Source: a virus. From it: a stretch of DNA of 64,000 bases. The stretch spans positions 1 through 64,000 of the IMG/VR virus record IMGVR_UViG_3300017917_001739; one strand, given 5' to 3'. Position 1 is the stretch's first letter; every line of letters begins with the position of its first letter. Below, piece by piece: positions 27,654 through 58,470 of the stretch. The notes under the pieces were generated by a model that saw nothing but the letters and a program-made list of their open reading frames with translations, was not told the origin of the DNA and did no database searches. The position numbers and the translations under genes were made by a program.

Positions 27654-27671
27654 AAAATAAGGGTGAATATT

Positions 27672-36577: not shown

Positions 36578-36682
36578 ATGTTTTATATTTGGCACACATT
36601 ATTAATTGCGAGTTTTATTGCTTTAGCATTTGGTATGGGTTATAGTATGGGTAAAAAATCAATTAAGAGAAAAATAAAATAA
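36578..36682 (+). CDS. Membrane micro-protein (34 aa)
   Basis: One membrane helix (LLIASFIALAFGMGYSM) and a basic tail (KKSIKRKIK). AAAGGAG precedes the ATG, and its TAA overlaps the ATG of the aminotransferase gene. Confidence 0.5.
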   Translation: MFYIWHTLLIASFIALAFGMGYSMGKKSIKRKIK

Positions 36683-37902
36683 TGTATGAATTAAGAAATA
36701 TTTCTCACGGAGAAATAGAAAAAACAGTTGTAAAAACTGACAGATATTGGATAGTAATGTCTGATGGCACAAAACTATTAGACATGCAATCAGGCAATAG
36801 TGCTTATACACTTGGTTATAATAATACTGAGATTATAGAAGCAATGAATGATAAATTAAAGAATGTAACTTTTATTCGTGGAAATACTGGAGAAACTGAA
36901 GCTGATACAAAAGCAATGGCACAATTTGCGATGAATGCTGGTAAATTTGATGTTTTGGCTTGGGCTATCTCAGGAAGTAGTGCAGTTGAAGCTGCAATTC
37001 ATATGAATGATCTTTATTGGAAAAGAGTAAATCCAGAAAAAGAATTAATTATTACTATGGCTCCAGGATATCATGGAACAACTCATTTAACAAGAGCAAT
37101 GGGCAATCCATATACAATGGAGTTTCCGCACAATCGTATTCGTTCTGTAAATGCGCCAACATGGCAATTTTATACTGAAAGAGAAAAAGCAGAAAAAACG
37201 TCATTAGAATTATTAGTAAAACGTTTTGAAAGAGATTCAAAAACTATTGGTGCCTTTGTAATGGAAACATGTCCTTGGATTCATGGAATATTACCATACA
37301 GTGAAAATTGGTGGAAAACAGTTCGAGAACTTTGTACTCGTTATAATATTAATATGATTACAGATGATGTAGCAATATGTTGGGGTAAATCATTATCTTA
37401 TTTTGGATATAGTACTGCAGGATATAATATTAAACCAGATATTACAGCAATTGGTAAAGCATTAACTGCAGGATATGCACCACATGGAGCAGCACTTGGA
37501 AACGAAAGAATTGGTTCAGTATTAAAAGTGAATGAGTGGGAATGGGGACATACTTGGCAACCAAATATGGCTGGTATAGGTGCAATGAAAAAAGTAAAAG
37601 AAATAATTGAAAGAGATAATTTATTCGAAAAAGGTAAAAATATTGTAGAAAAATTAACATTAATTGGAGAAGAATTAAAGGCAGATGGTTTTGTAACAAA
37701 CATGAGAGCATCTGGGTTATTTCTTGCTCTTGACACTAAAGTAGGTCTAGGATTTCAGAGCATTTCTAATTTTGTAAAAGCTGGTTTAACTGCAACAACA
37801 ACACAAACAGGAGCAATAAAAATTATTTGCAATTTATTGGCAGATGACGAGTATTTCTTTGAATTACGAAAAAGATTACGTGTTTTCTTTGAAAAACAAT
37901 AA
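36682..37902 (+). CDS. Class III PLP-dependent aminotransferase, copy 1
   Basis: The 406-residue protein has the fold-type I class III pattern: WAISGSSAVEAAI (phosphate-binding), APGYHGTTHLTRA, MITDDVAICWGK with the PLP-nitrogen Asp at 228, and the Schiff-base Lys at 259 in ITAIGKALTAGYAPHGAAL. The usual DE-V is D-D-V. A paralogue lies at 57241. Family members use glutamate, ornithine, beta-alanine or glutamate-1-semialdehyde. The real substrate is not evident. Confidence 0.8.
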   Translation: MYELRNISHGEIEKTVVKTDRYWIVMSDGTKLLDMQSGNSAYTLGYNNTEIIEAMNDKLKNVTFIRGNTGETEADTKAMAQFAMNAGKFDVLAWAISGSSAVEAAIHMNDLYWKRVNPEKELIITMAPGYHGTTHLTRAMGNPYTMEFPHNRIRSVNAPTWQFYTEREKAEKTSLELLVKRFERDSKTIGAFVMETCPWIHGILPYSENWWKTVRELCTRYNINMITDDVAICWGKSLSYFGYSTAGYNIKPDITAIGKALTAGYAPHGAALGNERIGSVLKVNEWEWGHTWQPNMAGIGAMKKVKEIIERDNLFEKGKNIVEKLTLIGEELKADGFVTNMRASGLFLALDTKVGLGFQSISNFVKAGLTATTTQTGAIKIICNLLADDEYFFELRKRLRVFFEKQ

Positions 37903-42376: not shown

Positions 42377-42937
42377 ATGGTGAAAAAAGAGAATCTAAAT
42401 AATAATCCAATTAAGCCGATTATTACTGATTGCGGATATTATAGAAGACCAACACCAGAAGAGTTATATGGTATTGAGAAATTAATACAAAAATCTAAAT
42501 TTCATCAAAATACTAAAGACATGATGTATATGTGTATTGCTAATTTACACGATTTTACTATGTGTCATGGATTTGATGATTATGGTGCTATTGGTTTCGC
42601 TAAACTTTTAAAAGAATGTGGAATCAGTTTAGATAATTATATTACTCGTAAAAGAGAAAGCACTTCAAATTATGCATCAGTTATATTTACTGAGATAGTT
42701 AAATTATTTGAAGAAAACGATAATGATAAATCTAAAAGAGTTAAGGGTATAGGAAGACGTATATTAATTGCTAAATTAAAAGAATTACTTCCGAATGTTA
42801 AATCTAGTTTTATATCTAAGTCGATTAATTCGAATATAAAATTACAAGTATTAACATATATTACTCAAAGTAAATCAAGAAAATTGCTTATTAAGGGACA
42901 ATATTGGAATACGTATGTTAAATCTAACAAAGTTTAA
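42377..42937 (+). CDS. Hypothetical protein (186 aa)
   Basis: A basic helical protein with no recognised motif (PTPEELYGIEKLIQKSKFHQ, RVKGIGRRILIAKLKELL). It overlaps the desaturase gene by 23 nt. Might bind DNA or RNA judging by charge, but that is a guess. Confidence 0.55.
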   Translation: MVKKENLNNNPIKPIITDCGYYRRPTPEELYGIEKLIQKSKFHQNTKDMMYMCIANLHDFTMCHGFDDYGAIGFAKLLKECGISLDNYITRKRESTSNYASVIFTEIVKLFEENDNDKSKRVKGIGRRILIAKLKELLPNVKSSFISKSINSNIKLQVLTYITQSKSRKLLIKGQYWNTYVKSNKV

Positions 42938-43769
42938 ATCTTTTTTTAAAGATATATCTACTCGAAACAATCTTTATTTAAGAGTGGCTTATTATATTTT
43001 TGTACATTATTTGGCATTACTTGCTTTTAAATATGGAACGATTACTACAATTTTTGTTGCGATCAGTTTTTGGTTTATTGGCGCATTTGCAGTATCAGGA
43101 TATGCGCATCGTGCACTCGCACATGGTTCAGTAAAATTTAAAAGTAAAACATTAGAACATTTATCTAATATATTTGCAATATATTCTGGTATTGGAACAC
43201 CACTTGGTTGGGCAGCACTGCATAGAATGCATCATAGTTACTTAGATACGGATAAAGATCCACATAGTCCATGGAGAATAGGATTTTGGCGATCTTATTT
43301 TCATTTATGGGATTGGCGAAAAGAAGATGTACCACCAAAAATGACGGCAGGATTACACAGAAATACGATTGCATTACGATATCATTTTAAAGCAGTACAA
43401 ACTTTAATTATTTTTTGGGTATCTCTTTTTGTATTTGCAGAATTAGCTAAAGTTCATCTAAACATATTAGGTGGATTGCCTGTAATTACTGGTGCAGCAA
43501 TTGCTGTTGTATTTGGTATTCATGGAATGGGAATAACGAACGCAGTAAGTCATTCTGGGGAAAAGCCAAAAGATATAGTTTCATTGAATCCAATCGGTGG
43601 AGCATTTATCAATTTCGGAGAAGGACAACACGAGTATCATCATTATAAACCAATGGATTATAGTTTTGGAGGTGGAATAAGCGATCCGACTGCAAGAGCA
43701 CTAGAACTTGCAGAAAAATTAAATCTAGTACAAATTAATCGAACAATAACGAGTGAATTAAATGGATAA
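42915..43769 (+). CDS. Fatty acid desaturase (membrane, three His boxes)
   Basis: Membrane fatty-acyl desaturases use a di-iron centre held by three His boxes. All are present in this 284-residue protein: HRALAH (HxxxxH), HRMHHSYLDTDKDPHS (HxxHH) and HEYHHYKP (HxxHH), with hydrophobic membrane segments before and between. The layout is that of acyl-CoA or acyl-lipid delta-9 desaturases. It lies 4.3 kb before a ketoacyl synthase gene, so acyl-chain tailoring is plausible. Confidence 0.8.
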   Translation: MLNLTKFKSFFKDISTRNNLYLRVAYYIFVHYLALLAFKYGTITTIFVAISFWFIGAFAVSGYAHRALAHGSVKFKSKTLEHLSNIFAIYSGIGTPLGWAALHRMHHSYLDTDKDPHSPWRIGFWRSYFHLWDWRKEDVPPKMTAGLHRNTIALRYHFKAVQTLIIFWVSLFVFAELAKVHLNILGGLPVITGAAIAVVFGIHGMGITNAVSHSGEKPKDIVSLNPIGGAFINFGEGQHEYHHYKPMDYSFGGGISDPTARALELAEKLNLVQINRTITSELNG

Positions 43770-43927: not shown

Positions 43928-44003
43928 TCACTCGTAGTTCAATGGATAGAATGCCAGACTACGAATCTGGAGGTTGCAAGTTCGAGTCTTGCCGAGTGAG
44001 CCA
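43928..44003 (+). tRNA. tRNA-Arg (anticodon ACG) with encoded CCA
   Basis: The 76-nt sequence folds as a full cloverleaf. The acceptor stem is TCACTCG/CGAGTGA, with discriminator G and CCA encoded at 44001-44003. The D stem is GTTC/GAAT, and the anticodon stem CCAGA/TCTGG holds loop CTACGAA, anticodon ACG. The T stem is GCAAG/CTTGC with loop TTCGAGT. A34 would be read as inosine after TadA editing, decoding CGT/CGC/CGA. It stands directly upstream of the oxygenase island. Confidence 0.93.
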
Positions 44004-44011
44004 AAATTAAT

Positions 44012-44800
44012 ATGATTAGTTATGAACCATATGCAGTTCGTCTGCAATTACCAAAACCATTTTTAAAACCATATTCTTTGGAATCTTGGTTTTCGTTACT
44101 TCCATATCCAAAAAGATGGGAAATTAATCCAAGAAAAGAATATAAACCATATTCTTCAATACTTCATCCTACAATTCATAATTACTCAAAACAAATAGTC
44201 TGGAATAAAACAACTATCAACGAATCAGGTTATACATCTGGTGTAAGATATACTCAATCTAAAGATGATATTGAAAAATTTTCTAGTTATTCTAAAATAA
44301 GTTATTCTGAAAATAGAATAGAAATACCATATATTGGAGCACCTGAAGAATGGGAAGATAGTATCGATATTGTAGATAATGAAGTGTGTGATGAGTTAGT
44401 GTCTCCTCGTTTTACTTCTTTTTTAAATTCTAGAAAACTTAAACTGCTTGGTTGGGATATTTTTATTTCTGGTCCGAATGGTTGGTTAAGAACGCACCAA
44501 GATACTACATATGAATGTACTAAATTAAATTTTGTATATTGTTTTGATAAAAATGGATTAAGTCAACAAAACTATTATGATGAAAACGATAAACTTATTT
44601 ACGAACACAATTTATCTAATGATTGGACACAACCATCATTAACTAATGTAGGAAGAATGCATAATGTAGTAAATAAAAGTAGTGGTGTAAGAATTTGTTT
44701 ATCTTATAAAATTGGTCTTTTTCAAGCTGAATATTATGGTGATGAATACACACATTGGAAAGCAATTTATCCTATTTTATCCGATTTAGTTTTAAATTAA
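44012..44800 (+). CDS. Family A oxygenase-like protein, member A1
   Basis: First of six tandem paralogues. The 262-residue protein has an N-terminal YAVRLQLPKPFLKPYS segment (an LxLPxPF motif shared by most family A members), H162-x-D164 (RTHQDTTYECTKLNFVYCF), H217 (GRMHNVVN) and R227 (VRICLSY). These fit the 2OG/Fe(II) double-stranded beta-helix, nearest to aspartyl/asparaginyl beta-hydroxylases. The ATG is 9 nt after the tRNA. Long members A1 and A2 carry a 70-residue N-terminal insertion relative to A3-A6. Confidence 0.6.
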   Translation: MISYEPYAVRLQLPKPFLKPYSLESWFSLLPYPKRWEINPRKEYKPYSSILHPTIHNYSKQIVWNKTTINESGYTSGVRYTQSKDDIEKFSSYSKISYSENRIEIPYIGAPEEWEDSIDIVDNEVCDELVSPRFTSFLNSRKLKLLGWDIFISGPNGWLRTHQDTTYECTKLNFVYCFDKNGLSQQNYYDENDKLIYEHNLSNDWTQPSLTNVGRMHNVVNKSSGVRICLSYKIGLFQAEYYGDEYTHWKAIYPILSDLVLN

Positions 44801-44801
44801 C

Positions 44802-44808
44802 CTAAATA
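44802..44808 (+). promoter_or_regulatory. Putative late-promoter motif CTAAATA
   Basis: AACCTAAATA with 5 nt between the motif and the ATG at 44814. A T4-type late start would be at or next to the ATG. Confidence 0.4.
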
Positions 44809-44813
44809 GTAGC

Positions 44814-45620
44814 ATGAGTATATTTACAATTTATCCAGAAACACACATAGGCAATAGTTGTCCACCTTATGCAGTAAGGTTACAAATGCCAGCAGGCTTT
44901 ACAAAACCATATACATCTCAGGAATGGTTTGATTCGCTTCCAATACCACCATATTGGTTTGATGAGAAAGTCATACCAAAAGAAATTCAAGCAATCGAAT
45001 ATTTAATCCATCCACTTAAATGGGAAAGAAATTTAAAAGAAGCATCATATACTTCTAAAGAACCAATCATTAAATGGCATGATAAATTGCCATTTTGGTA
45101 TAGTTGCATCGATATTATTGATAATGATGTAAATGAAGACTTTATACATCCAAGATTTACGCGTGTATTAAAAGATGTTGGATTAGAAATTGCTCATTGG
45201 GATATTTTTATTACACCAGCAAATATGTGGTTGGGTGCTCATAAAGATGCTTGGCAGCAATCAACTAAACTTAATTTCGTTTATTGTTTTAAACAAGATG
45301 GATTAAGTCAACAAAATTATTTTAATATAGACGAATCAACAAAAGATAATGTTCCAGGAGATCATGATGTAAAATACTATATCGTAAAAGAAGTAGCACT
45401 ATCAGATGGTCCTAACAGTCCTCGTATGGTTCATCAACACAATTTATCATTCGATTTAACACAACCATCATTAACAAATATTGGTATATATCATAATGTT
45501 GTAAATACTACATCTGGTCCGAGAGTTTGTTTAAGTTATTCGCTTAAATTAATTGGAAAAGATTCTATTGGTAGATGGGATGAAGTATATCCTCGTTTAC
45601 AGCATTTACAAATTAATTAA
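44814..45620 (+). CDS. Family A oxygenase-like protein, member A2
   Basis: The 268-residue protein is the closest relative of A1: both have TKLNFVYCF, NGLSQQNY or DGLSQQNY, and TQPSLTN. Predicted iron ligands are H143 and D145 (GAHKDAWQQ) and H227 (GIYHNVVN), with R237 for 2-oxoglutarate. It probably arose by duplication from A1. Confidence 0.6.
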   Translation: MSIFTIYPETHIGNSCPPYAVRLQMPAGFTKPYTSQEWFDSLPIPPYWFDEKVIPKEIQAIEYLIHPLKWERNLKEASYTSKEPIIKWHDKLPFWYSCIDIIDNDVNEDFIHPRFTRVLKDVGLEIAHWDIFITPANMWLGAHKDAWQQSTKLNFVYCFKQDGLSQQNYFNIDESTKDNVPGDHDVKYYIVKEVALSDGPNSPRMVHQHNLSFDLTQPSLTNIGIYHNVVNTTSGPRVCLSYSLKLIGKDSIGRWDEVYPRLQHLQIN

Positions 45621-45623
45621 ATT

Positions 45624-46226
45624 ATGAAATACATCGTCGATTTGTCATTACCCTTTAAATCACCAACACCATTTGGTTTAGAATCATATAGAGAAATAGC
45701 ATTAAAAGAAATAGAGAAAGATCCATTAGTTCAAAATTATGGATTAGATCTACCACCATCAGCTGCAAGTTCAGTAGCACATTCTTTTTTTAAATCATAC
45801 GGATATCTTATAGTTGGTTGTGAATACTTTTATTTTCAACCGAAGTTTGCTATGGGTATTCATATTGATGGCTCTCGATATTGCCATAAAGCAAAATTTA
45901 ACTGGGCATTTGGTGGAAAACATTCATTCAGATTTTTTGAACCATTAACTTCAGGAGTTAGTGATGGTGTATCAAATAATGCGAATAGTCCATACAGTCT
46001 TCAATTTAAAGAAAATGAGGTTGAAGAAAAGGCAAATCAAACTACAGGAAGTCCATCTTTAGTTTGTGTAGGAGTACCACATCAAGTTATTAATGGATCT
46101 GAACCACTTGAATTATTTAATATTAGTATTTGGAAAGAAGGATTAAAACGAGAACAAGAATTTATAGATCTTGGTGGAATGAATATGGAAGAAGGATTAG
46201 AAGTTTTTAAAAAATATGTTATTTAA
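45624..46226 (+). CDS. Family A oxygenase-like protein, member A3 (2OG-binding Arg absent)
   Basis: The 200-residue protein has H80-x-D82 (GIHIDGSRYCHKAKFNWAF) and H153 (GVPHQVIN), but the conserved Arg ten residues later is missing (GSEPLELFNISIW). That could mean a changed co-substrate, use of another basic residue, or a dead enzyme. It overlaps A4 by 11 nt. Confidence 0.55.
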   Translation: MKYIVDLSLPFKSPTPFGLESYREIALKEIEKDPLVQNYGLDLPPSAASSVAHSFFKSYGYLIVGCEYFYFQPKFAMGIHIDGSRYCHKAKFNWAFGGKHSFRFFEPLTSGVSDGVSNNANSPYSLQFKENEVEEKANQTTGSPSLVCVGVPHQVINGSEPLELFNISIWKEGLKREQEFIDLGGMNMEEGLEVFKKYVI

Positions 46227-46899
46227 TTTTAAACATTTAAATAAAGAAAATATTCCAGAACCATTAACAAAAGAAGGAATGGATTGGATGCAGTCATATT
46301 CATTTACAAAACAAACTAAAATTTGGGTTGAAACAAAATATCATAATCCAGAATATTTGTTATGGTTAGAAACAATAGGATTAAGCATTACTGATATAGA
46401 ATTATTTTTAAATCCTGCAAATCATTCTATGCCTATTCATATAGATGGAAATGAATTACATGACGAGTTTAAATTAAATTTTGCATATAATCCTAGAGGA
46501 AATAGTTTAATGAATTGGTTTTCTCCACATAAAGAAGCGAAGGCAAAAAGAGAAGGAGTGTTATATGCTAATCAAGATGCAAGACCAATTAATACAAAAG
46601 ATTTATATTGGTATCCTGAAGAAGTTGATTTAATTGATTCTGCAGATATAGATGTAGCAATAGTACAAGTTGGGCAACCACATAATGTAAAAACTACATT
46701 TAGTCCAAGAAGATGTTTATCTTGTGTATTTGATAAAATTTTAATTAAAGATGTATTTACTACAAATGAAGCAATATTAAAAGGTATGCCACTTGAGACA
46801 ATCGCAATCGAAAGAGATAAAGCTGTAGACGCAAAGATATTACAAAATATTGTTACAATGCCTGAAGCAATAGAATTATTTAAGGATTATATAATATGA
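46216..46899 (+). CDS. Family A oxygenase-like protein, member A4
   Basis: The 227-residue protein has H75-x-D77 (MPIHIDGNELHDEFKLNFAY), H156 (GQPHNVKT) and R165 (SPRRCLSC). It is similar to A0 at 7531 in size and motif spacing (GQPHNV...SPR). It overlaps both neighbours (11 and 4 nt), which supports translation in one operon. Confidence 0.6.
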   Translation: MLFNFKHLNKENIPEPLTKEGMDWMQSYSFTKQTKIWVETKYHNPEYLLWLETIGLSITDIELFLNPANHSMPIHIDGNELHDEFKLNFAYNPRGNSLMNWFSPHKEAKAKREGVLYANQDARPINTKDLYWYPEEVDLIDSADIDVAIVQVGQPHNVKTTFSPRRCLSCVFDKILIKDVFTTNEAILKGMPLETIAIERDKAVDAKILQNIVTMPEAIELFKDYII

Positions 46900-47474
46900 A
46901 CAAATATTGCGTTCATTTAAATTTGCCATTTAAAAAATTATTTAACGTAGAAGATTGGAAAAAACTACTTCCAAAAAAAGGACATTTTCCAGTACCAAAA
47001 AATTTAATTGATAAAGAATTAATAGATTGGTTTGAATTAAAGGGATTTATATTAAAGAATGCAGATGTTTTTATTTCACCTCCTGCGTTTCGATTACCTA
47101 TCCATGTTGATGGTGAACAAATGAGCGATTCAGTTGCGATTAATTGGCAATTTTGTGAAGAATCAGGTTCTTATATGGAATGGTGGCAACCAAAAGATCC
47201 TAAAAAACATTCAATGGTTGCTCCAGGAACAGAAAAAGAAGCATATGCTATTTCGACAACACCATATGCACTCAACTGGAAAGATGATGAATGTAATTTA
47301 TTACATAGATCTGAAATAAAATTTCCATCATTAGTGAACATTGGAGTACCACATTCAATGACTAATGCTACTAGCAGTACAAGATGGGCAGTAAGTTTAA
47401 CTTGGTTTAATTATAAAGATATTAACATAGAATGGGATTATGCAATTACAAAACTTAAATCGTTCATTTCGTAA
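46896..47474 (+). CDS. Family A oxygenase-like protein, member A5
   Basis: The 192-residue protein has H70-x-D72 (LPIHVDGEQMSDSVAINWQF), H153 (GVPHSMTN) and R163 (STRWAVSLTW). The YCVHLNLPFKKLF start shows the family LxLPF motif. The ATG overlaps the previous stop by 4 nt. Confidence 0.6.
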   Translation: MNKYCVHLNLPFKKLFNVEDWKKLLPKKGHFPVPKNLIDKELIDWFELKGFILKNADVFISPPAFRLPIHVDGEQMSDSVAINWQFCEESGSYMEWWQPKDPKKHSMVAPGTEKEAYAISTTPYALNWKDDECNLLHRSEIKFPSLVNIGVPHSMTNATSSTRWAVSLTWFNYKDINIEWDYAITKLKSFIS

Positions 47475-48108
47475 ATTAAAATTACCATTTGAACATCCAT
47501 TTACAAACGATTATGTTTTTCCAAAAGAAAAAGATCAATCGATTGATGCGAAATACGCAGATCATTATGGAGAAAGACATTTAATTAATCCAAGTTTAAT
47601 TGATTGGGCAAAAAATATAGGATTGGGTGTATTAAGAATAGAAAGATTTTCAAGTAAACCAAATTATCGTATGTATGTACATACTGATAATGACGATTGG
47701 ATAGACAATATTGTTAAAATTATATGGTGTTATTGTCCAACTAACGATCATTCAATGGTTTGGTATGACGTAAAAGATCCGTCATGGTATGATACTATTA
47801 CAACTAATGACAGTGGTCCGACGATGAAATTTCCTGATTTTAATTTAAAAAAAGAAATAGCAAGACATACTATATTGCCGAATGAACCCATATTAGCAAA
47901 TACTGGACAGCCACATAACATAGAAAATGGCTCTAATTATCGTCATGTAGTTTGTGCTTGGTTTTATAAATTAAACTCAAACGAGTCTATAAACGTCGAT
48001 GGATTAACTTATCCGAAACCTCTTGAGTGGGACGATGCACTAAATAGTATGAAGAATTTTATAATTAATGATGAATTAAACGTTGATGATGCGAATCAAA
48101 TAATATGA
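47440..48108 (+). CDS. Family A oxygenase-like protein, member A6
   Basis: The 222-residue protein begins with LKLPFEHPF, has H81-x-D83 (YVHTDNDDWIDNIVKIIW), H159 (GQPHNIEN) and R168 (YRHVVCAWF). It overlaps A5 by 35 nt and the ketoacyl synthase gene by 4 nt, so the last oxygenase and the synthase are tightly coupled. Confidence 0.6.
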   Translation: MQLQNLNRSFRKLKLPFEHPFTNDYVFPKEKDQSIDAKYADHYGERHLINPSLIDWAKNIGLGVLRIERFSSKPNYRMYVHTDNDDWIDNIVKIIWCYCPTNDHSMVWYDVKDPSWYDTITTNDSGPTMKFPDFNLKKEIARHTILPNEPILANTGQPHNIENGSNYRHVVCAWFYKLNSNESINVDGLTYPKPLEWDDALNSMKNFIINDELNVDDANQII

Positions 48109-49283
48109 TGAATAAAATTTATGTTGTAGGTTATGGTATGATTGATAGTCTTGGGAATAATCCTAAAGATTGTTTTGATCGAATGTTAGATAATAATGAT
48201 TATTCTAAAGATATACCAGAACTGATTGCGGATAATAGTAAAGTATATAGAGGAGCAATATTTGATCCTAATACTTGTATTATACCAAAAGAATTTGACA
48301 ATAAGATGTTACGTTCATTAACAAATGCACAGAAAATGATGTTGCATGCTGTGAATGATGCACTGATTATGTCAAAATTACCACATCACTACGATGTGGC
48401 AACTCTTCTATCAACTGTGTCAAATGATACAGAATTTTTAGATGAGTTGTATTTACCGACGAAAAGTAATAAAAGAGTAAACCCACGTAAGAGTGCTAAT
48501 CGTATTCCAGATATGGGATGTTCTCATATTACTTCTCATTACAAATTTATGGGTCTAAGTGCTGCAACTTTCGCGAGTTGTTCAACTGGACTTGTAACTA
48601 TTGATTATGGAATGCGTCTCTGCGATGAATATGAATATGTCATTGTAGGAGGTGCAGATGCAGGTTGTTTTCCTATGGCGATTAAATATTTTAACACCTT
48701 AGGTGCAGTTGCGAATACAAGTATGCCTTTCGATGATTCTCGTGCAGGATTTCTGATGGGAGATGGATGTGGTGTACTTATATTACAAAGTGAAAAAATG
48801 GTCAAGAAATATGGCAGTACAGTGCATGCAACTTTATATCCTTGTGGTATGGCGAGTGATGCACTTGATATGACAAGTCCTGCAAATGATGGACGAGGTG
48901 CTCGTATTTCTATGTCTAAAGCAATGGGTCATGTGAATGATATAGATTTTGTGTGTGCGCACGCAACTTCTACACCAATTGGTGATCCAATCGAGTATGA
49001 AACAGTAGTCAGTTTCGTAGGTGAAAAACCTATTTGGGCTCCAAAATCCAAAATAGGACACACTCTTGCTGCAGCTGGTATATTAGAATGTATTTACTCA
49101 ATCCTTTCAATGAAAGAGGGAATCGTTCCACATATACAAAATTTAAAACAGGCATCTTGCGATACAAAAGGAATTTTGGTTCGTGAGAATTTAAAAACAA
49201 ACAAAAAAGTCTTGCGTACATTAAATAATTCTTTCGGTTTCGGAGGAAAATGTATGTCGCAAGTAATAGAGGTAAATAAGTAA
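48105..49283 (+). CDS. Beta-ketoacyl synthase (KAS II/FabF-like)
   Basis: KAS enzymes condense an acyl thioester with malonyl-ACP. This 392-residue thiolase-fold protein has the Cys-His-His triad: C159 in FASCSTGL, H286 in VCAHATSTPIGD and H319 in KSKIGHTLAAAG, so it should be active. The GFGG ending (NNSFGFGGKCMS) is also typical. No ACP, ketoreductase or other fatty-acid gene is visible in the window, so it would use host ACP. Placement inside an oxygenase operon is unusual for phage. Confidence 0.85.
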   Translation: MMNKIYVVGYGMIDSLGNNPKDCFDRMLDNNDYSKDIPELIADNSKVYRGAIFDPNTCIIPKEFDNKMLRSLTNAQKMMLHAVNDALIMSKLPHHYDVATLLSTVSNDTEFLDELYLPTKSNKRVNPRKSANRIPDMGCSHITSHYKFMGLSAATFASCSTGLVTIDYGMRLCDEYEYVIVGGADAGCFPMAIKYFNTLGAVANTSMPFDDSRAGFLMGDGCGVLILQSEKMVKKYGSTVHATLYPCGMASDALDMTSPANDGRGARISMSKAMGHVNDIDFVCAHATSTPIGDPIEYETVVSFVGEKPIWAPKSKIGHTLAAAGILECIYSILSMKEGIVPHIQNLKQASCDTKGILVRENLKTNKKVLRTLNNSFGFGGKCMSQVIEVNK

Positions 49284-49286
49284 AAG

Positions 49287-49778
49287 ATGACTCAAGCAAA
49301 GTTAAATCTACAGGAGTTTCCCCAACGCGAAACTTCAAAAATAAAATCTGTTCCTTCTTCACTTGAGAACAGTGGAAATAATAATGTGGGAAGAGTATTC
49401 CATGAAAAATATGCAGATACTGCTATTCAATCATGGGGTTATCACTTAATATTAGATGCGAAAGGATGTAAAAAGAATTTTAACGAACCTAAAATTCTAG
49501 AAACTTTCGTAGTGGATTTATTAAAAAGAATAAAGATGAATGCATGGGGAACCCCATGGATTACACACTTTGCTGAAAAGCCAGAAATTGCTGGTTGGAC
49601 AGTAATACAACCATTGACAACAAGTTCATTAACTATACACTTTTTAGATATAAATGGTGATATGTATTTTGATTTGTTTTCATGTAAAACTTTTGATATT
49701 GAAATGGTGAAAAGTATGATTATAGAATATTTTGATCCTATTTCAATGAAGGATCAATATCTTGTACGACAAGCATAA
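49287..49778 (+). CDS. SpeD-like pyruvoyl-dependent decarboxylase
   Basis: SpeD decarboxylates S-adenosylmethionine for spermidine synthesis. Phage homologues may also have become ornithine or arginine decarboxylases. The 163-residue protein has a GYHLILDAKGC start, TTSSLTIHF and YFDLFSCKTFD. Aligned with bacterial SpeD, S113 is the Ser that becomes pyruvoyl, H118 and C133 keep the exact 15-residue spacing of H68 and C83. The Glu before the cleavage site is Thr112 and the following His is Ser114. A 45-residue N-terminal extension precedes the core. Confidence 0.75.
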   Translation: MTQAKLNLQEFPQRETSKIKSVPSSLENSGNNNVGRVFHEKYADTAIQSWGYHLILDAKGCKKNFNEPKILETFVVDLLKRIKMNAWGTPWITHFAEKPEIAGWTVIQPLTTSSLTIHFLDINGDMYFDLFSCKTFDIEMVKSMIIEYFDPISMKDQYLVRQA

Positions 49779-50241
49779 TATAACACCAAAAGAAGCATTA
49801 CAAGAGTGGCTGGCGAGGATTAAAATTCCTCGTCAAGCACTCGATGGTCATTCTATTTGTCCTTTCAGTAAAGGTATTAGTGTGCCAACTCCAGAATATT
49901 TACATATGGACGAAAATTTTATAGCTCCATCTGTTGAGAATATTCGAAGAATTAAAGTATATACAGTTACAAATTTAAACATTACACCTGAATCTATGGA
50001 TTCTTGGTGTTCTTTCTATGCGAACAAATTTCCAGATTTAATATTTTTAGCTGACCATAAAGATCGTAAAACATTTATAAATGGCGTACAAACAAATAAT
50101 GGTTATTATAATTTTATGTTATGCCAACCTAAAAAAGAATTAAATGAAGCAAGAGATTCACTAATTAAAACAAATTATTATAGTTTTTGGGATGAGAATT
50201 ATCTCAAAGATGTATGGGGTAAAGATTATCAACCTAAATAA
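49762..50241 (+). CDS. Unknown protein with CPFSKG motif (159 aa, TTG start)
   Basis: The frame starts at TTG 49762, with AAGGA 8 nt before it and overlapping SpeD by 17 nt. No better start exists without losing the first conserved part. The motif GHSICPFSKG at about residues 29-38 could be a metal or catalytic Cys site. The rest is alpha/beta. I recognise no family. It always stands between SpeD and the amidinotransferase here, so it may be part of the pathway. Confidence 0.55.
   Translation: MYDKHNITPKEALQEWLARIKIPRQALDGHSICPFSKGISVPTPEYLHMDENFIAPSVENIRRIKVYTVTNLNITPESMDSWCSFYANKFPDLIFLADHKDRKTFINGVQTNNGYYNFMLCQPKKELNEARDSLIKTNYYSFWDENYLKDVWGKDYQPK
50234..50240 (+). promoter_or_regulatory. 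Putative late-promoter motif CTAAATA at the amidinotransferase start
   Basis: AACCTAAATA overlaps the upstream stop codon with 7 nt to the ATG at 50248. The overlap with coding sequence makes chance more likely, but spacing matches 9029 and 44814. Confidence 0.35.
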
Positions 50242-50247
50242 ATTATT

Positions 50248-51336
50248 ATGAGTGTTTGGACAGATTATGATCCTTTAGAGGAAATTATAGTAGGAAATAT
50301 TCCTACACCTGATTATTATAAATCGTTTGTAAGTGCAGAAGTAATGCGTGTGTTAGAACCCATTATTCTTGAAACTAAAGAAGATTTAGATAATATGCAA
50401 AAAGTATTTGAATCTTTAAATGTAAAGGTTTATCGTCCAGAAATACTTCCGTTTGAAAGTAATTTAAAACTTCCTAAATTTAAAATTAAAAATCCTATCG
50501 CACCAATTGTTCCAAGAGATTCCTATATTGTTTATGGAAATACAATCTATTCAGCATATACTTCAATGGCTGATCGATGGTTAGAGTCATTAGCATTTTA
50601 TAATATATTTTTAGAAAAGTACACAAAAAATTCTTATAACTGGATAAGTACACCAGTTCCACTACTTAAAGATTTTCCACCTGACACTCAATGGTTTACA
50701 CATGGTGGCGACAGATATGGAAGAGATTTGGTGAATAGAATATTATGGCATACTGCAACAATGTATAAAGTTGGCGATTCAATAATTGTAAATTCAGCTG
50801 GTCCTGGAACAGCATTAGGATTAGATTGGATGAAAAGAAATATTCCTTCTACAAAATTTATTGATAATGTAAATAAGCCACATCGTGGTTGGGGACATAT
50901 CGATCAGTTCTTTTTTATGACTAATGACACTACTTGTTTTTGTACAGATATAAATTATGTACCAGAAGCTATATTGAAAAATAAAAATATAAATGTACAT
51001 TCTTTTGGTCATTTAATTACAAATATAGATATGATACAATACGATCATCGAATGACAGCTTCAGAAGGAAAATATAGTATTGAATGGATTAAAGAATGGA
51101 TATCTGAGTGGCGTGGATTCGCACAAGAAGTTGCTTTTGATAGTAATGTCGTAGTGGTAGATGAATCGAACATAGTTGTAAGCAATCATCAACCAAAATT
51201 AGAAGAATTTTTTAAATCGCATGGAATTAAATTACATGTGGCAAATCAAAGACAAGGTGGTTTTTGGGATGGTGGTGTTCATTGTTTAACACTTGATATA
51301 AAAAGAAAAGGGGAACGAAGAAATGTCTTGGATTAA
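50248..51336 (+). CDS. Amidinotransferase (AGAT-like, pentein fold)
   Basis: Arginine amidinotransferases move the amidino group of arginine to an amine such as glycine, or are the related arginine deiminases. The 362-residue protein has PRDSYIVYGNTIY, WFTHGGDRYGRD, RGWGHIDQFFF (catalytic His with the HxD pattern) and C346 in GGVHCLTLDI as nucleophile. The start VWTDYDPLEEIIVGN is typical of the family. In this operon it may act on a product of the neighbouring SpeD/KAS/oxygenase enzymes. Confidence 0.82.
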   Translation: MSVWTDYDPLEEIIVGNIPTPDYYKSFVSAEVMRVLEPIILETKEDLDNMQKVFESLNVKVYRPEILPFESNLKLPKFKIKNPIAPIVPRDSYIVYGNTIYSAYTSMADRWLESLAFYNIFLEKYTKNSYNWISTPVPLLKDFPPDTQWFTHGGDRYGRDLVNRILWHTATMYKVGDSIIVNSAGPGTALGLDWMKRNIPSTKFIDNVNKPHRGWGHIDQFFFMTNDTTCFCTDINYVPEAILKNKNINVHSFGHLITNIDMIQYDHRMTASEGKYSIEWIKEWISEWRGFAQEVAFDSNVVVVDESNIVVSNHQPKLEEFFKSHGIKLHVANQRQGGFWDGGVHCLTLDIKRKGERRNVLD

Positions 51337-52366
51337 TATAAAAAATTATAATCATTATTCTGATTTAGAAAAAATAGTTCCATACTTACAACAAGATATA
51401 TTAGCTTGGGTACAAAAACATAATATAGAAACAGATGCATTAAGTGCTTATGGTACTGGAGATAAAGCAAAAACTAAAATTAGCCGTTTAACGACTGTAC
51501 CAAAACAATATGTTGGCGAATTGACTGAAGTTCCTTCAAATAATTTAGAATTTAAACATGCAGATGATTGGAAAACTATTCCATGTTATTATAATAGAGT
51601 TTGGGATAAAATAGTTTTTCCTAAGTCTTGGGAAGCATTGAGTAAATTAAATGGAGTGTATCAAATACTTATAAATTTTATCAAACCACATGGTAAAATA
51701 ACTCCACATAAAGATACAAGTAATTGGGATCGTATTGAAGAACAATTAAAAAGAAAAGTAGATGGTTATAGTGCGGTTGTTACATTATTTTCTGGAATGA
51801 AAAACAAAAATGAAAAAACAGTAGGAATGGATGTCGAAGGAATTCAAAAATATCCACTAGCAGGAGAAATAGTTTGTTTTGATGGTAAAGAAGCTGGCCA
51901 TAGTATGTGGAATGACACGAATGAGTGGAGAATTACAGCAGTTATAGATATTGATAAAAAACATTTTATTAATGAGAGATTAAAAGAAATTATTATTAAT
52001 GGTAATAAAGAAACAATTATATTACCTAAAAAACCACATCCGATAATTAAATTAGAAAACGATCATTATGTAACTTTAAAAGAACCAACTATAAGAGAGA
52101 TAAATATAGTTGTAGATTCAGAAAATGAAAGCATTATCTATAAACATATTCTTTCGAATGTTAAATATTTAACAGATAATGGTGGAATAAAACATTATGT
52201 TGATTCAGTACCAGACGATGAATTGCTTTTTTATTGGAACAATTTAGGATCTAAAACGATTAATTTATTAAAACAGTATTTTATAGAATATAAAGAATAT
52301 CATAATATAATGAATTATATAGAATTACATGCAGAAGAAATGATAGAGGATTCAAAGGGAGAATAG
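51323..52366 (+). CDS. Family B Asp/Asn-hydroxylase-like protein, member B1
   Basis: First of four tandem paralogues, overlapping the amidinotransferase gene by 14 nt. The 347-residue protein has H129-x-D131 (ITPHKDTSNWDRIEE), GEIVCFDGKEAGHSMWN with H193, and R203 (EWRITAVID). The FDG...H...N...WR-x-x-x-x-D block is close to aspartyl/asparaginyl beta-hydroxylases. It alone carries a C-terminal extension of about 130 residues without known motif. Confidence 0.68.
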   Translation: MSWINIKNYNHYSDLEKIVPYLQQDILAWVQKHNIETDALSAYGTGDKAKTKISRLTTVPKQYVGELTEVPSNNLEFKHADDWKTIPCYYNRVWDKIVFPKSWEALSKLNGVYQILINFIKPHGKITPHKDTSNWDRIEEQLKRKVDGYSAVVTLFSGMKNKNEKTVGMDVEGIQKYPLAGEIVCFDGKEAGHSMWNDTNEWRITAVIDIDKKHFINERLKEIIINGNKETIILPKKPHPIIKLENDHYVTLKEPTIREINIVVDSENESIIYKHILSNVKYLTDNGGIKHYVDSVPDDELLFYWNNLGSKTINLLKQYFIEYKEYHNIMNYIELHAEEMIEDSKGE

Positions 52367-52370
52367 AATT

Positions 52371-53090
52371 ATGTGGATTGATACTAAATTATATAAAAAT
52401 TATGACGATTTAATGTTTTTAGGCAAAGTAATACAATCAGACTTTGAAAAATGGAAACTTAAATATGGTACAAATGAAGCATATGCAAAACGTATTCAAG
52501 TTCAAAAATTTGAACATCATGACGTCTATCCAGATTATGCTCATGTAAAAGGTGGTGACGATCTATACCATAGACCAGAATCTATTGAAGATCGACATAA
52601 TCCAAACGAATATTGGTTTTGCGATGCAGTATTTACTGATTGTGGAAATAAGAAAATGAAAAATTTTGAAGACTGGAAAGAGTCAGCAGAATTGGCTTTA
52701 AAACTTCCAGGAATAGTACAATTTATTGTTAATTTTGTAAAACCAAAATCAGAATTGCCATCTCATGATGATACAGGTGGATGGAAAAGAATTGAAAAAG
52801 ATATAGGAAGACCACTAAATGGATTCAGTAATGTATTAGGATTAGCAACTAATGCTACTAATATGGGATTTGTTTTTAAAAATAGATACACTGGAGTACC
52901 AGAAAAAAAAGGTTGGAATAGTGGTGAGTGGGTTTCTTTCGAAGGAAAAACACATTATCATGATGTATATAATCATAGCAACGACTGGCGTGTTACAGCA
53001 ATTATAGATTTAGAATATACGCAATATAATTTAAAAAATTCAGACCTCTATTATTTACAAAATAGATGGGCTACTTATACAGGAGAATAA
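52371..53090 (+). CDS. Family B Asp/Asn-hydroxylase-like protein, member B2
   Basis: The 239-residue protein starts MWIDTKLYKNYDDL, like B3 and B4. Predicted ligands H132 and D134 (LPSHDDTGGWKRIE), H197 (HYHDVYNHSNDWR) and R207. GGGAG precedes the ATG. An insertion around residues 45-75 distinguishes it from B3. Confidence 0.68.
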   Translation: MWIDTKLYKNYDDLMFLGKVIQSDFEKWKLKYGTNEAYAKRIQVQKFEHHDVYPDYAHVKGGDDLYHRPESIEDRHNPNEYWFCDAVFTDCGNKKMKNFEDWKESAELALKLPGIVQFIVNFVKPKSELPSHDDTGGWKRIEKDIGRPLNGFSNVLGLATNATNMGFVFKNRYTGVPEKKGWNSGEWVSFEGKTHYHDVYNHSNDWRVTAIIDLEYTQYNLKNSDLYYLQNRWATYTGE

Positions 53091-53091
53091 T

Positions 53092-53667
53092 ATGTGGATA
53101 GATCCAAAAAAATTCAAACATTATGAAATGTTAAAATCGTTATCAGTTGCTTTACAAGCAGACTATTCTACATTTTCAAGGAATCATAATATTAAAGAAA
53201 AAGGAATTAATGTTTTTCGTTACGAATATCCAAATGCAGAACATGAACATGCAGATTCTTGGTGGGCTATTCCACTTATACAAGGAACAAAAGCTGTACC
53301 TAATGACTGGCATCGTTCTACTGCAGTTTTAAAAGAAATTCCTGGAGTATTCCAATCAATAGTAAATTTCATTACACCATTTGGTGGATTACCATTACAT
53401 AAAGATTTTGGTAGTTGGCAAAGAATTGAAGAATCAGTTGGTCATGCTGTAAAAGGCTGGACTATTGCAATCGGTATTGATATGCCAAGCAATGATCCGA
53501 AAATACTTGGAATAGAATTTGAAAACGATTCAGCTCCAAGAGCATATGCAAATAACGAAATAGTTGCTTTTGATGGAAGAAATTATATGCATAAAGTTTG
53601 GAATAAAACTGGAAATTGGAGAGTGTCTGCAATTGTAGATACAAATGAAACAGAGTGGGCTTTATAG
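53092..53667 (+). CDS. Family B Asp/Asn-hydroxylase-like protein, member B3
   Basis: The 191-residue protein is the shortest member and shows the core: MWIDPKKFKHYEML start, PGVFQSIVNFITPFGGLPLH with H103-x-D105, then EIVAFDGRNYMHKVWN with H167, and R177 (NWRVSAIVD). ACAGGAGAA precedes the ATG. Confidence 0.68.
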   Translation: MWIDPKKFKHYEMLKSLSVALQADYSTFSRNHNIKEKGINVFRYEYPNAEHEHADSWWAIPLIQGTKAVPNDWHRSTAVLKEIPGVFQSIVNFITPFGGLPLHKDFGSWQRIEESVGHAVKGWTIAIGIDMPSNDPKILGIEFENDSAPRAYANNEIVAFDGRNYMHKVWNKTGNWRVSAIVDTNETEWAL

Positions 53668-53677
53668 AGGAGGAATT

Positions 53678-54259
53678 ATGTGGTTAGGTGATCCAATACA
53701 ATATAAAGATTATGGTGCATTGCAAAAGCTCATGCAAGCCCTTTTAAACGATTATGCAGCATGGAGAAAGAATTTTAGTATAGAAACTGATACTGTGAAC
53801 GCAGACGAAAGATACGCAATGCCTGAAGCGAATAAAGGGGGTTTTAAGGCTCTTCCTGTAATAGATGGTCGAAAAGTACAAGAAAGGTGGAGTTTAGGTT
53901 GGAATCGAAGCATGAAAGCAGCATTTGAAATTGAAGGAATGATTGATATGTGTATTAATTTTATTCGTCCAGGAAAAATGCTTCCAGTCCATCATGATGG
54001 TTATGTTTGGGATTGGATACGTCAAAGTGTTGGAGATCCATCAATTAGTGGATATACAGTAAGTTTTGGAATTGATATACCAGATCCAGAAAATCAAGCA
54101 TTGATATTTGATGGAATTAAAAGAGTTTGGAAAACTGGAGAATTTAGAGCATTTAATGGACATGATATTCAACATCAATTAGTAAATAATGCAACTAATC
54201 CAGAACATTGGAGAGTAACTGCAGTAATGGAAATAGAGGGTAAATATTTTAACATATAA
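53678..54259 (+). CDS. Family B Asp/Asn-hydroxylase-like protein, member B4
   Basis: The ATG at 53678 follows a very strong ribosome site (GAGGAGG), preferred over an upstream ATG at 53645 inside B3. The 193-residue protein has H105-x-D107 (LPVHHDGYVWDWIRQS), H166 (IQHQLVNN) and R179 (HWRVTAVME). An Asn-Pro insertion lies between the last His and Arg. It ends the island, and a promoter follows within 6 nt. Confidence 0.66.
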   Translation: MWLGDPIQYKDYGALQKLMQALLNDYAAWRKNFSIETDTVNADERYAMPEANKGGFKALPVIDGRKVQERWSLGWNRSMKAAFEIEGMIDMCINFIRPGKMLPVHHDGYVWDWIRQSVGDPSISGYTVSFGIDIPDPENQALIFDGIKRVWKTGEFRAFNGHDIQHQLVNNATNPEHWRVTAVMEIEGKYFNI

Positions 54260-54754: not shown

Positions 54755-55327
54755 ATGAATATATTTTTTCTAGATAAAAATCCACAAATTTGTGCGACAA
54801 TGCACTGCGATAAGCATGTAGTTAAAATGATTATAGAATATGCGCAGTTATTGTCGACTGCGCATCGCGTTCTAGACGGCAATCCTGTAAATTCAAAATC
54901 TATCAATAATCGCAAATACACTTCCTATAATCACCCAACAATGAATGATGTATTGTATAAAGCAACAATGAAAAATCATCCGAGTGCTATATGGGTTCGT
55001 GAGAGTAAAACTCATTATGAATATCTTTATACATTGTGGGTTTCTTTATGTAATGAATATACTCATCGATATGGTAAAATACACAGTACCTATTCTAAAT
55101 TGAAAGATGCTTTATCTATTACTCCAAAAAATATTCCAGTTTTATCTTTTTCAGAACCACCACCAGCAATGAAGCATTTTCCACAATGTATAGTTCCAAA
55201 TAACTCTATTCAATCTTATCATAATTATTATAGAGTTGCAAAAGCATACTTCGCTAAATGGACTAATAGATCTATTCCAGAGTGGTATCTAAATAAAAAT
55301 AAAGGATTAGAACATGCCAATATATAG
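54755..55327 (+). CDS. Conserved phage protein (190 aa)
   Basis: Begins MNIFFLDKNPQICATMHCDK and continues HVVKMIIEYAQLLSTAHR, a start I know from a conserved phage family sometimes likened to pyrimidine-dimer glycosylases. Later NHPSAIWVRES and a PPPAMKHFP segment are typical. The likeness to DenV is weak, so I leave function open. It overlaps the next gene by 14 nt. Confidence 0.65.
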   Translation: MNIFFLDKNPQICATMHCDKHVVKMIIEYAQLLSTAHRVLDGNPVNSKSINNRKYTSYNHPTMNDVLYKATMKNHPSAIWVRESKTHYEYLYTLWVSLCNEYTHRYGKIHSTYSKLKDALSITPKNIPVLSFSEPPPAMKHFPQCIVPNNSIQSYHNYYRVAKAYFAKWTNRSIPEWYLNKNKGLEHANI

Positions 55328-55575: not shown

Positions 55576-55704
55576 ATGGATTTATATGACGCAATCATTT
55601 TTACGATTGAACTGACATCTACTATAATATTATTGACGATTGTAGTTGCTTTATTCGGAATTCATTTAATTCGAGCAATTAAAAGGAAATTAAAATGGAA
55701 ATAA
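55576..55704 (+). CDS. Membrane micro-protein overlapping the endolysin start, possible holin
   Basis: A 42-residue protein with one membrane helix (STIILLTIVVALFGIHLI) and a strongly basic tail (RAIKRKLKWK). It overlaps the endolysin ATG by 10 nt. A tiny membrane protein coupled to an endolysin gene is a typical place for a holin or pinholin, but this is by position only. Confidence 0.45.
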   Translation: MDLYDAIIFTIELTSTIILLTIVVALFGIHLIRAIKRKLKWK

Positions 55705-56315
55705 ATTTTACAGAATCTAAATTAAATTTAATCATCGGTCCTAACGAGTACATTTCAGATTGGTTTCTTTCATTAAATACGATTTTACCAAAATATGGAA
55801 TTAATAATTTAAATAGAGTGGCAGCATTCCTTGCTCAAACTGCCCATGAATCAGGCAAATATAAATTTTTACAAGAAAATCTTAATTATAGCGATAAAGG
55901 TTTATTGAAAACGTTTCCAAAATACTTTAATGAAAGTAATGTGATGGATTATGCTCGTAAACCAGAAGCGATTGCGAATAGAGTTTATGCGAATAGAATG
56001 GGTAATGGTCCAGAAGAATCTGGAGATGGCTGGTTATATTGTGGAAGAGGATTAATCCAATTAACTGGCAAGAATAATTATACTGCATTCGCTAAAAGTA
56101 TAGAGTTTCCTGTTGAAGAATTAGCTGACTATCTTATGACATTTGATGGTGCTGTTACTTCAGCATGTTGGTTTTGGCATAAGAACAATTTAAATGACTT
56201 TGCTGATACTGGCGATCTAGTAATGATGACCAAAAAAATTAATGGTGGAACTATTGGATTGGAAGATCGAGTAAAACATTATAACCATGCAATAGAGGTA
56301 TTATCACATGACTAA
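55695..56315 (+). CDS. GH19-type endolysin
   Basis: GH19 (chitinase-fold) endolysins cleave the glycan of peptidoglycan. The 206-residue protein has AAFLAQTAHESGKYKFLQEN with the general-acid Glu, YANRMGNGPEESGDGWLYCG with the second Glu, and GRGLIQLTGKNNY, the family signature. No signal peptide is visible, so it needs a holin. AAAAGGAAA precedes the ATG. Confidence 0.88.
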   Translation: MEINFTESKLNLIIGPNEYISDWFLSLNTILPKYGINNLNRVAAFLAQTAHESGKYKFLQENLNYSDKGLLKTFPKYFNESNVMDYARKPEAIANRVYANRMGNGPEESGDGWLYCGRGLIQLTGKNNYTAFAKSIEFPVEELADYLMTFDGAVTSACWFWHKNNLNDFADTGDLVMMTKKINGGTIGLEDRVKHYNHAIEVLSHD

Positions 56316-57152: not shown

Positions 57153-57244
57153 TGAATATAAAACAACATAAACCTAGTATTTGGGTAGTGCTAATTATTA
57201 TTGGTTGGTTATTAGCTATCGTATCCATTGTTTGTTACTTATGA
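57152..57244 (+). CDS. Membrane micro-protein (30 aa)
   Basis: A basic start (MNIKQHKPS) and one membrane helix (IWVVLIIIGWLLAIVSIV). It overlaps the stop of the exonuclease and the ATG of the aminotransferase gene. Confidence 0.45.
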   Translation: MNIKQHKPSIWVVLIIIGWLLAIVSIVCYL

Positions 57245-58470
57245 TTGAATTAAAACCAAATAGCACTCAAGAACATATTAAAGAAATTGCCTTTACAGAA
57301 AAATATTGGGTACATTATTTAAATGCACCTCCACATTTAGAAATACAATCTGGTAATGCTGCTTTCGGTTTAGGTTATCAAGCTGAAGATTTAAGAGATA
57401 TACTTTCAAAAAATAAAATAGATTTTATTCGTGGAAATAGTGGTGAAACAAGTGAAGTTGTTGAAAAATTAAATGAGACACTTTGTTCTACTGCAAATAT
57501 GGAAAGTATCGCTTATGCAGTTTCAGGCTCAGATGCAAACGAAGCTGCCATTTATATGCATGATACTTATTGGGTAAATATTGGAAAACCAAAAACACAT
57601 TTAGTAAGTTTTTATCCTTGCTATCATGGAACTACATATTTAAATCGACAATTTAAAAATGATATGCTTCCGAGCAAAGAACTAAGTCGTGTTAAAATGA
57701 TTCGTGGTAAAGAATGGTACACGGACGCTGAACGTATAGAACATGAAACAATGCTTACTGATTCTTTCATTACCACTTTACAAGCAAATCCAACTATTGG
57801 TGGATGTATAATGGAAAGTATGCCTTGGAATGAAACGATTGCGCCATATAGTCAAGAATTTTGGAAAACTATTCGACAAATTTGTGATGAATTTAATATA
57901 TTAATGATTGTTGATGATGTAGCAGGATATGGTGGTAAAGTAGGAACACTTTTTACACATACATATTATGGAGTAACTCCAGATATTGTAACAATCGGAA
58001 AAGCATTAACAAATGGAATGGTTCCTTTAAGTGCAGCATTAGCGAATGAAAAAGTTACAAAAGGAGTTCGTAAAAAGAATTGGGATTGGGGGCACACTTG
58101 GCAACCAAACATGTACGGAGTAGAACTTGCGAATAGAGTAATTGAGATATTAAATTCTAAAGGTTATTTAACGACGGATCATCAAAATTATATTGGTAAA
58201 AAGATAAAAGAATTAGAAACATTCCTTGTGAATGAAAAACTTGCGACATCTATAATTGGTAAAGGTTGCTGGAGATCAATTCAAACTAATCCAATTGCAA
58301 CTCCTATTGGTTTATATCATTTAAGTAATGCTGGAATGGCAGCAACTACTTCTCATAAAATGATTAAATTAATTTTGCCACTGATTGTAGATGACGAATA
58401 TTTTGACGAATTAAAGGCGAGAACGACTTTATGTTTAACAACTAGAAAAGAGGAGATAGAAAACTTATGA
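57241..58470 (+). CDS. Class III PLP-dependent aminotransferase, copy 2
   Basis: The ATG at 57241 matches the family start, and a longer frame would cover the micro-protein. The 409-residue protein is a paralogue of the enzyme at 36682: both have IQSGNAAFGLGYQ or MQSGNSAYTLGYN, FIRGN-G-T, a GY-HGTT loop, MIVDDVAGYGGK and the Schiff-base Lys in IVTIGKALTNG. As in copy 1, the usual D-E-V is D-D-V. The pair may act on different steps of one pathway or form a hetero-oligomer. It overlaps the next gene by 4 nt. Confidence 0.8.
   Translation: MIELKPNSTQEHIKEIAFTEKYWVHYLNAPPHLEIQSGNAAFGLGYQAEDLRDILSKNKIDFIRGNSGETSEVVEKLNETLCSTANMESIAYAVSGSDANEAAIYMHDTYWVNIGKPKTHLVSFYPCYHGTTYLNRQFKNDMLPSKELSRVKMIRGKEWYTDAERIEHETMLTDSFITTLQANPTIGGCIMESMPWNETIAPYSQEFWKTIRQICDEFNILMIVDDVAGYGGKVGTLFTHTYYGVTPDIVTIGKALTNGMVPLSAALANEKVTKGVRKKNWDWGHTWQPNMYGVELANRVIEILNSKGYLTTDHQNYIGKKIKELETFLVNEKLATSIIGKGCWRSIQTNPIATPIGLYHLSNAGMAATTSHKMIKLILPLIVDDEYFDELKARTTLCLTTRKEEIENL

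Follow-up and report, generated by a model that had tools for sequence, protein, structure and literature searches.

A candidate guanidine-tailoring cassette shared by unrelated phages adjoins an acyl-enzyme module in a water-borne T4-like phage

The window analyzed in this study comprises 64,000 nt (positions 1 to 64,000) of the virus record IMGVR_UViG_3300017917_001739, a virus fragment of 68,128 bases carrying T4-like genes, and its subject is an island of 14 tightly packed protein genes at window positions 44012–54259 on the plus strand, directly after a tRNA-Arg(ACG) gene. The island encodes a SpeD homologue, a small protein with a CPFSKG motif (CPF), an amidinotransferase homologue (AMT), a beta-ketoacyl-acyl carrier protein (ACP) synthase (KAS), and ten iron/2-oxoglutarate-dependent (Fe/2OG) oxygenase-like proteins of two families, A and B. 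SpeD, CPF, and AMT, together with oxygenases, a class III aminotransferase, and a short-chain dehydrogenase/reductase (SDR)-like gene, are a real, mobile cassette across unrelated phages (module 2), while a desaturase (DES), family A oxygenases, and KAS make up another module (module 1) that in other phages is usually found without SpeD–CPF–AMT. The island is tentatively read here, at a little short of an even chance, as a fusion of these two modules in which module 2 is a mobile guanidine-tailoring cassette that works as proposed below. This reading builds on gene content, motifs, and cross-phage linkage, and takes the activities, the order of steps, and the product from the chemistry of the enzyme families.

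The linkage was quantified on the fetched loci, using the best 80 of each scan clustered at 70% identity and uncorrected for phylogeny. Because the AMT and CPF loci had partly been fetched through these very genes, a CPF-first scan was compared with a KAS-first scan. Among the 35 clusters of the CPF-first scan, AMT lay within 6 kb in 19, as the immediate neighbour in 14, whereas it was found within the same distance in only 1 of the 19 KAS clusters (Fisher p = 3e-4, kinship ignored). The CPF-first clusters also included a class III aminotransferase in 11, an SDR-like gene in 7, and SpeD in 7, adjacent in 6 of the latter. From the other side, CPF was located within 40 nt of AMT in 6/26 clusters (60% identity) of the AMT-first set. 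The tandem order SpeD–CPF–AMT occurs in loci L132/L196, L195, L197, L198, L199, L214, and L350, while loci L205–L207 carry the order CPF–family A–aminotransferase–AMT–SpeD; since the set thus recurs in unrelated phages and in different arrangements, the linkage of SpeD, CPF, AMT, and oxygenases is real. Of 35 CPF–AMT loci sampled, 16 further carry a radical SAM/SPASM protein and 12 a Trp-halogenase-family protein, and many have additional Fe/2OG genes.

The same loci separate the two modules. DES was linked to KAS in 6/19 clusters of the KAS-first scan, and KAS relatives at about 57% identity keep the desaturase, two family A genes, and KAS, without SpeD, CPF, and AMT. In L132/L196 a single contig holds both modules at a distance of about 6.5 kb, supporting that they are separate units sharing one genome that have become joined in the window. 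Close relatives of the island (KAS identity 85–88%; L026, 78%) differ in how many oxygenase copies they carry but retain genes of both modules (the desaturase, family A, KAS, SpeD, CPF, AMT, and family B) together with the T4-like flanks. The first-pass annotation had taken all of these genes as parts of one pathway; functional linkage holds for SpeD–CPF–AMT with oxygenases, but a single pathway joining acyl condensation to amidino transfer is not established, because KAS, the desaturase, and family A usually occur apart from them.

The genes of the two modules and their candidate partners, all on the plus strand, are as follows.

42915–43769, plus: DES, predicted membrane fatty-acid desaturase with three His boxes, module 1; NCBIfam DesA family at 5e-9, below cut-off
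43928–44003, plus: tRNA-Arg(ACG), called by ARAGORN, directly upstream of the island and kept there in most close relatives
44012–44800, plus: A1, family A Fe/2OG oxygenase; HxD162 and H217..R
44814–45620, plus: A2, family A; HxD...H and 2OG-binding Arg
45624–46226, plus: A3, family A; HxD...H, without the 2OG-binding Arg
46216–46899, plus: A4, family A; stays beside KAS in the 57% relatives
46896–47474, plus: A5, family A; AlphaFold2 model, pLDDT 90.8; VIA Z 10.4 to 7v4m
47440–48108, plus: A6, family A; HxD...H and 2OG-binding Arg
48105–49283, plus: KAS, phage-type beta-ketoacyl-ACP synthase by Pfam and by C159/H286/H319/K314, module 1
49287–49778, plus: SpeD homologue (PF02675), probably a pyruvoyl ornithine decarboxylase; S113, H118, C133, Q108, T112, F119, Y127; module 2
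49762–50241, plus: CPF, candidate thiolate-haem oxygenase; invariant C33-P34, DUF6875 in 9/31 members, AglA Z 5.0; module 2
50248–51336, plus: AMT, pentein amidinotransferase homologue; profile match to HsvA, StrB, AGAT, SxtG; His168 at the Asp254 position; module 2
51323–52366, plus: B1, family B (PF05118-like) Fe/2OG oxygenase with a C-terminal extension
52371–53090, plus: B2, family B
53092–53667, plus: B3, family B
53645–54259, plus: B4, family B
36007–36576, plus: SDR/epimerase-like gene, adjoining AT1 here; relatives adjoin CPF–AMT in other phages
36682–37902, plus: AT1, class III aminotransferase (PF00202, 7e-51); relatives adjoin AMT in other phages
57181–58470, plus: AT2, class III aminotransferase (PF00202, 2e-42)
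7531–8127, plus: A7, a seventh family A oxygenase, outside and far from the island

The first-pass annotation counted thirteen protein genes after the tRNA, and although all of them are in place, its own list sums to 14 (6 + 1 + 1 + 1 + 1 + 4). It also called them coupled, in agreement with the intergenic spacing of -35 to +13 nt across the island; the shared strand is by itself no evidence for an operon, because the plus strand holds almost every gene of the window.

SpeD, named as such from the outset, matched PF02675 (1e-12). A single-protein query of viral_contigs returned nothing, and an alignment query retrieved its relatives. The self-processing Ser and the catalytic His and Cys correspond to S113, H118, and C133 of the window protein, and its Q108, T112, F119, and Y127 recur in its phage relatives. 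These four were assigned in this analysis, from the text of PMC10407285, to the Gln, Thr, Phe, and Tyr that it describes as diagnostic of ornithine decarboxylase, whereas the genuine S-adenosylmethionine decarboxylase of phage phiN3 has Asp at the diagnostic Thr position. SpeD homologues of freshwater myophages decarboxylate ornithine in vitro (PMC9992855), and based on this activity and the published signature the window SpeD is likely an ornithine decarboxylase. It has the same self-processing and catalytic residues and the same Gln/Thr/Phe/Tyr signature as the phage SpeDC pyruvoyl ornithine decarboxylases of LBP and UCP01-04 (PMC9992855), but, unlike them, this predicted decarboxylase is encoded together with CPF and AMT in an operon-like array.

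CPF, noticed earlier for its CPFSKG motif, is a protein of 159 aa in which Cys-Pro (C33-P34), Gln122, Tyr140, and Trp143 are invariant across the family, and it belongs to phrog_10325, a protein family without assigned function. When 31 diverse CPF members were scanned singly, 9 matched DUF6875 (best 3.5e-4) and 2 the next family, with all DUF6875 scores seen below the Pfam cut-off of 24.5 bits; members of DUF6875 have been described as enzymes that bind haem and oxidise tryptophan (PMC13307353). A Foldseek search of the CPF model (pLDDT 88) against the PDB gave no match at E 0.001, while a second-look structural alignment placed apo-AglA first (Z 5.0, 143 of 159 residues, rmsd 4.7), with the next chain at 3.5. 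AglA is a thiolate-haem enzyme of four-stranded sandwich fold that hydroxylates the guanidine nitrogen of arginine (PMC12866846). CPF is thus a candidate thiolate-haem oxygenase, and the reading is a good lead, because two independent methods point to thiolate-haem oxygenases, one of them guanidine-acting, for a protein encoded next to AMT. Compared with AglA, the YqcI/YcgG haem guanidine N-oxygenases, and DUF6875 proteins, it resembles them in the conserved Cys, the four-stranded model, the top structural match, and the weak DUF6875 matches, but is shorter than AglA, with haem binding only predicted, and shows no sequence match to AglA. CPF was not found in plasmids. In cyanophages, CPF (L111:5890-6414) immediately precedes the genes of the baseplate wedge, and a 2OG oxygenase is encoded at a distance of about 5 kb.

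AMT matched no Pfam family above threshold. Its family profile matched HsvA (3e-49), StrB (2e-45), AGAT (4e-44), and also SxtG over most of its length, indicating pentein homology, with HsvA, which we take to be a polyamine amidinotransferase, as the best solved match by a small margin. C407, H303, D305, and D170 of AGAT align with C346, H217, D219, and D91 of AMT and are conserved in 95 to 99 of 99 homologues, so that the catalytic Cys of the earlier annotation is borne out. In AGAT the nucleophilic Cys407, His303, and the guanidine-binding Asp residues are joined by Asp254 of the catalytic triad, a position occupied by His168 in AMT. His stands in this column in 42/53 AMTs of CPF-bearing loci and in 11/11 of the aminotransferase loci without CPF, and Asp appears only among the remaining AMTs, outside these two groups of loci. 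Since the triad Asp is replaced, AMT is classed by sequence as a divergent amidinotransferase homologue and not as a proven member: the Cys, the His, and two Asp are common to it and HsvA, StrB, AGAT, and SxtG, but the catalytic Asp254 is a His. A profile scan of genome_contigs detected no bacterial relative of AMT.

Further arrangements were observed around these genes. In other phages, the CPF–AMT loci L040:1-21071, L039, L058, L200-L205, L220, L227, L228, L263, and L266 are built up into large tailoring clusters, which encode many Fe/2OG proteins in addition to Trp-halogenase-family, radical SAM/SPASM, and ATP-PPase-like proteins. In the large phages L094 and L097-L099, a single gene separates two distinct AMT homologues, of which the first immediately follows CPF, and the AMT homologue of Campylobacter phage CP220 (L110:7992-9053) is found among radical SAM and nucleotide-sugar genes.

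For the acyl module, KAS matched PF00109 (3e-23) and PF02801 (1e-21), and C159, H286, H319, and K314 are invariant among seven phage homologues, so the Cys-His-His triad is complete, as first described. It scored 205 bits against the FabF equivalog TIGR03150, whose cut-off is 493.75, which marks it by sequence as a phage-type KAS and not a FabF ortholog. The desaturase carries the His boxes HRALAH, HRMHH, and HEYHH. No ACP gene was found in the record of the window or in close relatives, so KAS would use the ACP of the host.

The six family A and four family B genes were both rightly called oxygenase-like. All ten island oxygenases have HxD...H, and only A3 lacks the 2OG-binding Arg; with the metal-binding motif intact throughout, the active sites look usable rather than decayed. 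Family A matched no Pfam family above threshold, and its genuine Fe/2OG fold is seen in the A5 model, which forms a double-stranded beta-helix. Its closest structural counterparts, at Z 10.4 to 8, are enzymes that hydroxylate small molecules and amino acids, such as the nucleoside-antibiotic hydroxylase 7v4m at the top, proline 3-hydroxylase, GriE, and lysine halogenases. B1–B4 matched the Asp/Arg hydroxylase family PF05118 weakly (7e-6 to 9e-3). The C-terminal extra region of B1, about 120 residues, is absent from B2–B4 and matched nothing. B1 and A5 had no relative in the phage collection at E 1e-3. A further Fe/2OG-like gene at 27663–28262 matched PF13640 below cut-off (7e-4).

Helper genes had also been suggested elsewhere in the window. 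The two aminotransferases, both class III, the FkbM protein, and the desaturase are there, but neither Pfam nor NCBIfam supports the proposed SDR at 36007, which shows just an N-terminal TGxxGxIG motif. The guess that the SDR-like gene and the aminotransferases could feed the island is strengthened by their relatives, which lie within the cassette in other phages.

In the proposed mechanism, module 2 comprises SpeD, CPF, AMT, and the family B oxygenases; the SDR-like gene and the class III aminotransferases probably belong to it as well. The SDR and aminotransferase would prepare an amine acceptor, and AMT would move the amidino group of arginine onto it, following the carbonyl–amine–guanidine sequence of streptidine biosynthesis. 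SpeD, acting as an ornithine decarboxylase, would turn the by-product ornithine into putrescine, pulling the reversible transfer forward and making it one-way. CPF, as an AglA/DUF6875-type thiolate-haem oxygenase, and the Fe/2OG enzymes would then oxidise the product at nitrogen and at carbon. Module 1 may act on host acyl-ACP or lipids, and may be independent of module 2 or concern the host membrane only. More simply, the putrescine from SpeD may itself be the acceptor of AMT. The dehydrogenase, aminotransferase, and StrB of streptidine biosynthesis find their counterparts in the SDR-like, aminotransferase, and amidinotransferase genes that neighbour one another in other phages, by analogy only, but the phage aminotransferase is class III and no inositol or sugar genes were identified.

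Several observations weigh against this proposal. In the neighbourhood comparison, which the first-pass annotation had named among its checks, most KAS clusters showed no link to module 2, and CPF or AMT is nearby in just 3/29 SpeD clusters, which makes SpeD a frequent but not exclusive partner of the cassette. The replacement of the triad Asp of AGAT by His168 in AMT counts against transfer activity as drawn. For CPF, the Z of 5.0 with AglA is weak and in the range of chance arrangements, no family cut-off is passed, PF08892 (YqcI/YcgG) gave no match, and no ferredoxin gene was found. Finally, the cyanophage CPF is beside baseplate genes, and no AMT was found in cyanophage records.

Among the other explanations, polyamine supply survives best. 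SpeD would make putrescine, an HsvA-like AMT would guanidinylate putrescine or polyamines, and hydroxylases would modify them, giving DNA counter-ions or translation aids while the infection proceeds, and no natural product as such. The narrow lead of HsvA, presumably a polyamine enzyme, among solved AMT matches and the decarboxylase signature of SpeD fit this explanation. Phage polyamine genes are moreover widespread (PMC9992855), but the aminotransferase, SDR, halogenase-like, and radical SAM neighbours and the number of oxygenases are left unexplained, and we regard it as unlikely. The island might instead be a hypervariable slot beside a tRNA gene that collects unlinked auxiliary genes, with desaturase and KAS for host membrane lipids, SpeD for polyamines, and oxygenases as separate modifiers of proteins or of the host. 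KAS and SpeD do usually occur without the other island genes, oxygenase copy number varies in the slot, and PMC7029224 lists such genes separately, with an Asp/Asn hydroxylase as core to pelagimyophages; the adjacency of CPF and AMT in many unrelated phages and the recurring SpeD–CPF–AMT order speak against it, and it is judged quite unlikely.

The His at the Asp254 position would also suit AMT as a hydrolase or other guanidine enzyme, in a cassette that serves as a source of nitrogen and carbon by breaking arginine down to ornithine and putrescine. This is improbable, as pure catabolism needs neither CPF nor ten oxygenases and the nearest profile matches are transferases. Hypermodification of DNA or RNA, offered by the first-pass annotation, finds a weak match of the family B profile to a Naegleria Tet-like dioxygenase (E 0.014), but PF05118 is the better family match and, with regard to DNA thymidine, no thymidylate-synthase-type gene (PF00303) occurs in the record or in five relatives (one of 144.8 kb), records that may be incomplete, leaving this explanation very improbable. 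A creatine pathway was also considered (ocean viruses carry GAMT; PMC11360552) and rejected, there being no methyltransferase beside AMT except the distant FkbM gene.

The phage carrying the island is water-borne and T4-like; its nearest UvsX proteins in the phage collection, at 57–58% identity, are from T4-like cyanophages and Methylophilales phages. A ribonucleotide reductase small chain is encoded at 32136–33164 (PF00268, 9e-73), and downstream of the island come a pyrimidine-dimer glycosylase-like gene (54755–55327) and a GH19 chitinase-like gene (55695–56315), probably an endolysin. For the freshwater fonsimyophages, speH, fabF, a stearoyl-CoA desaturase, and 2OGFeDO have been listed as unique genes (PMC7029224), and the window shares the speH, fabF, desaturase, and 2OG inventory, the T4-like character, and the presence of tRNA genes with PMP-MAVG-15/-20 of group PMP-D. 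By analogy with this published inventory taken alone, the host may be Ca. Fonsibacter; the tRNA-Arg pattern had no exact match in genome_contigs. The island had been called undescribed. Its inventory is partly published, since speH, fabF, desaturase, 2OG, and Asp/Asn hydroxylase genes are in PMC7029224, but, compared by published description, the text on fonsimyophages there mentions no amidinotransferase, CPF, or linked cassette, and no description of CPF–AMT or of the cassette was found in the literature searched. Clustered phage metabolic genes as such are of a known kind.

The recurring module suggests that phages make a guanidine-type small molecule. It would go considerably further, and seems unlikely as a whole, that phages carry and exchange a complete cassette making an N-oxidised guanidino metabolite during infection. 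Such a cassette would combine amidino transfer from arginine, an ornithine sink, many Fe/2OG hydroxylases, and thiolate-haem oxygenases that form a new branch in phages, and through the acyl module joined here its product may be an acylated guanidino lipid. The finding gives phrog_10325 a function-linked home, and SpeD, CPF, and AMT are three small soluble proteins that are directly testable. Phage metabolic genes are usually viewed as single helpers of host metabolism. When unrelated phages preserve the core of a multi-enzyme cassette, this points instead to a metabolite made by the phage and selected for a role in infection.

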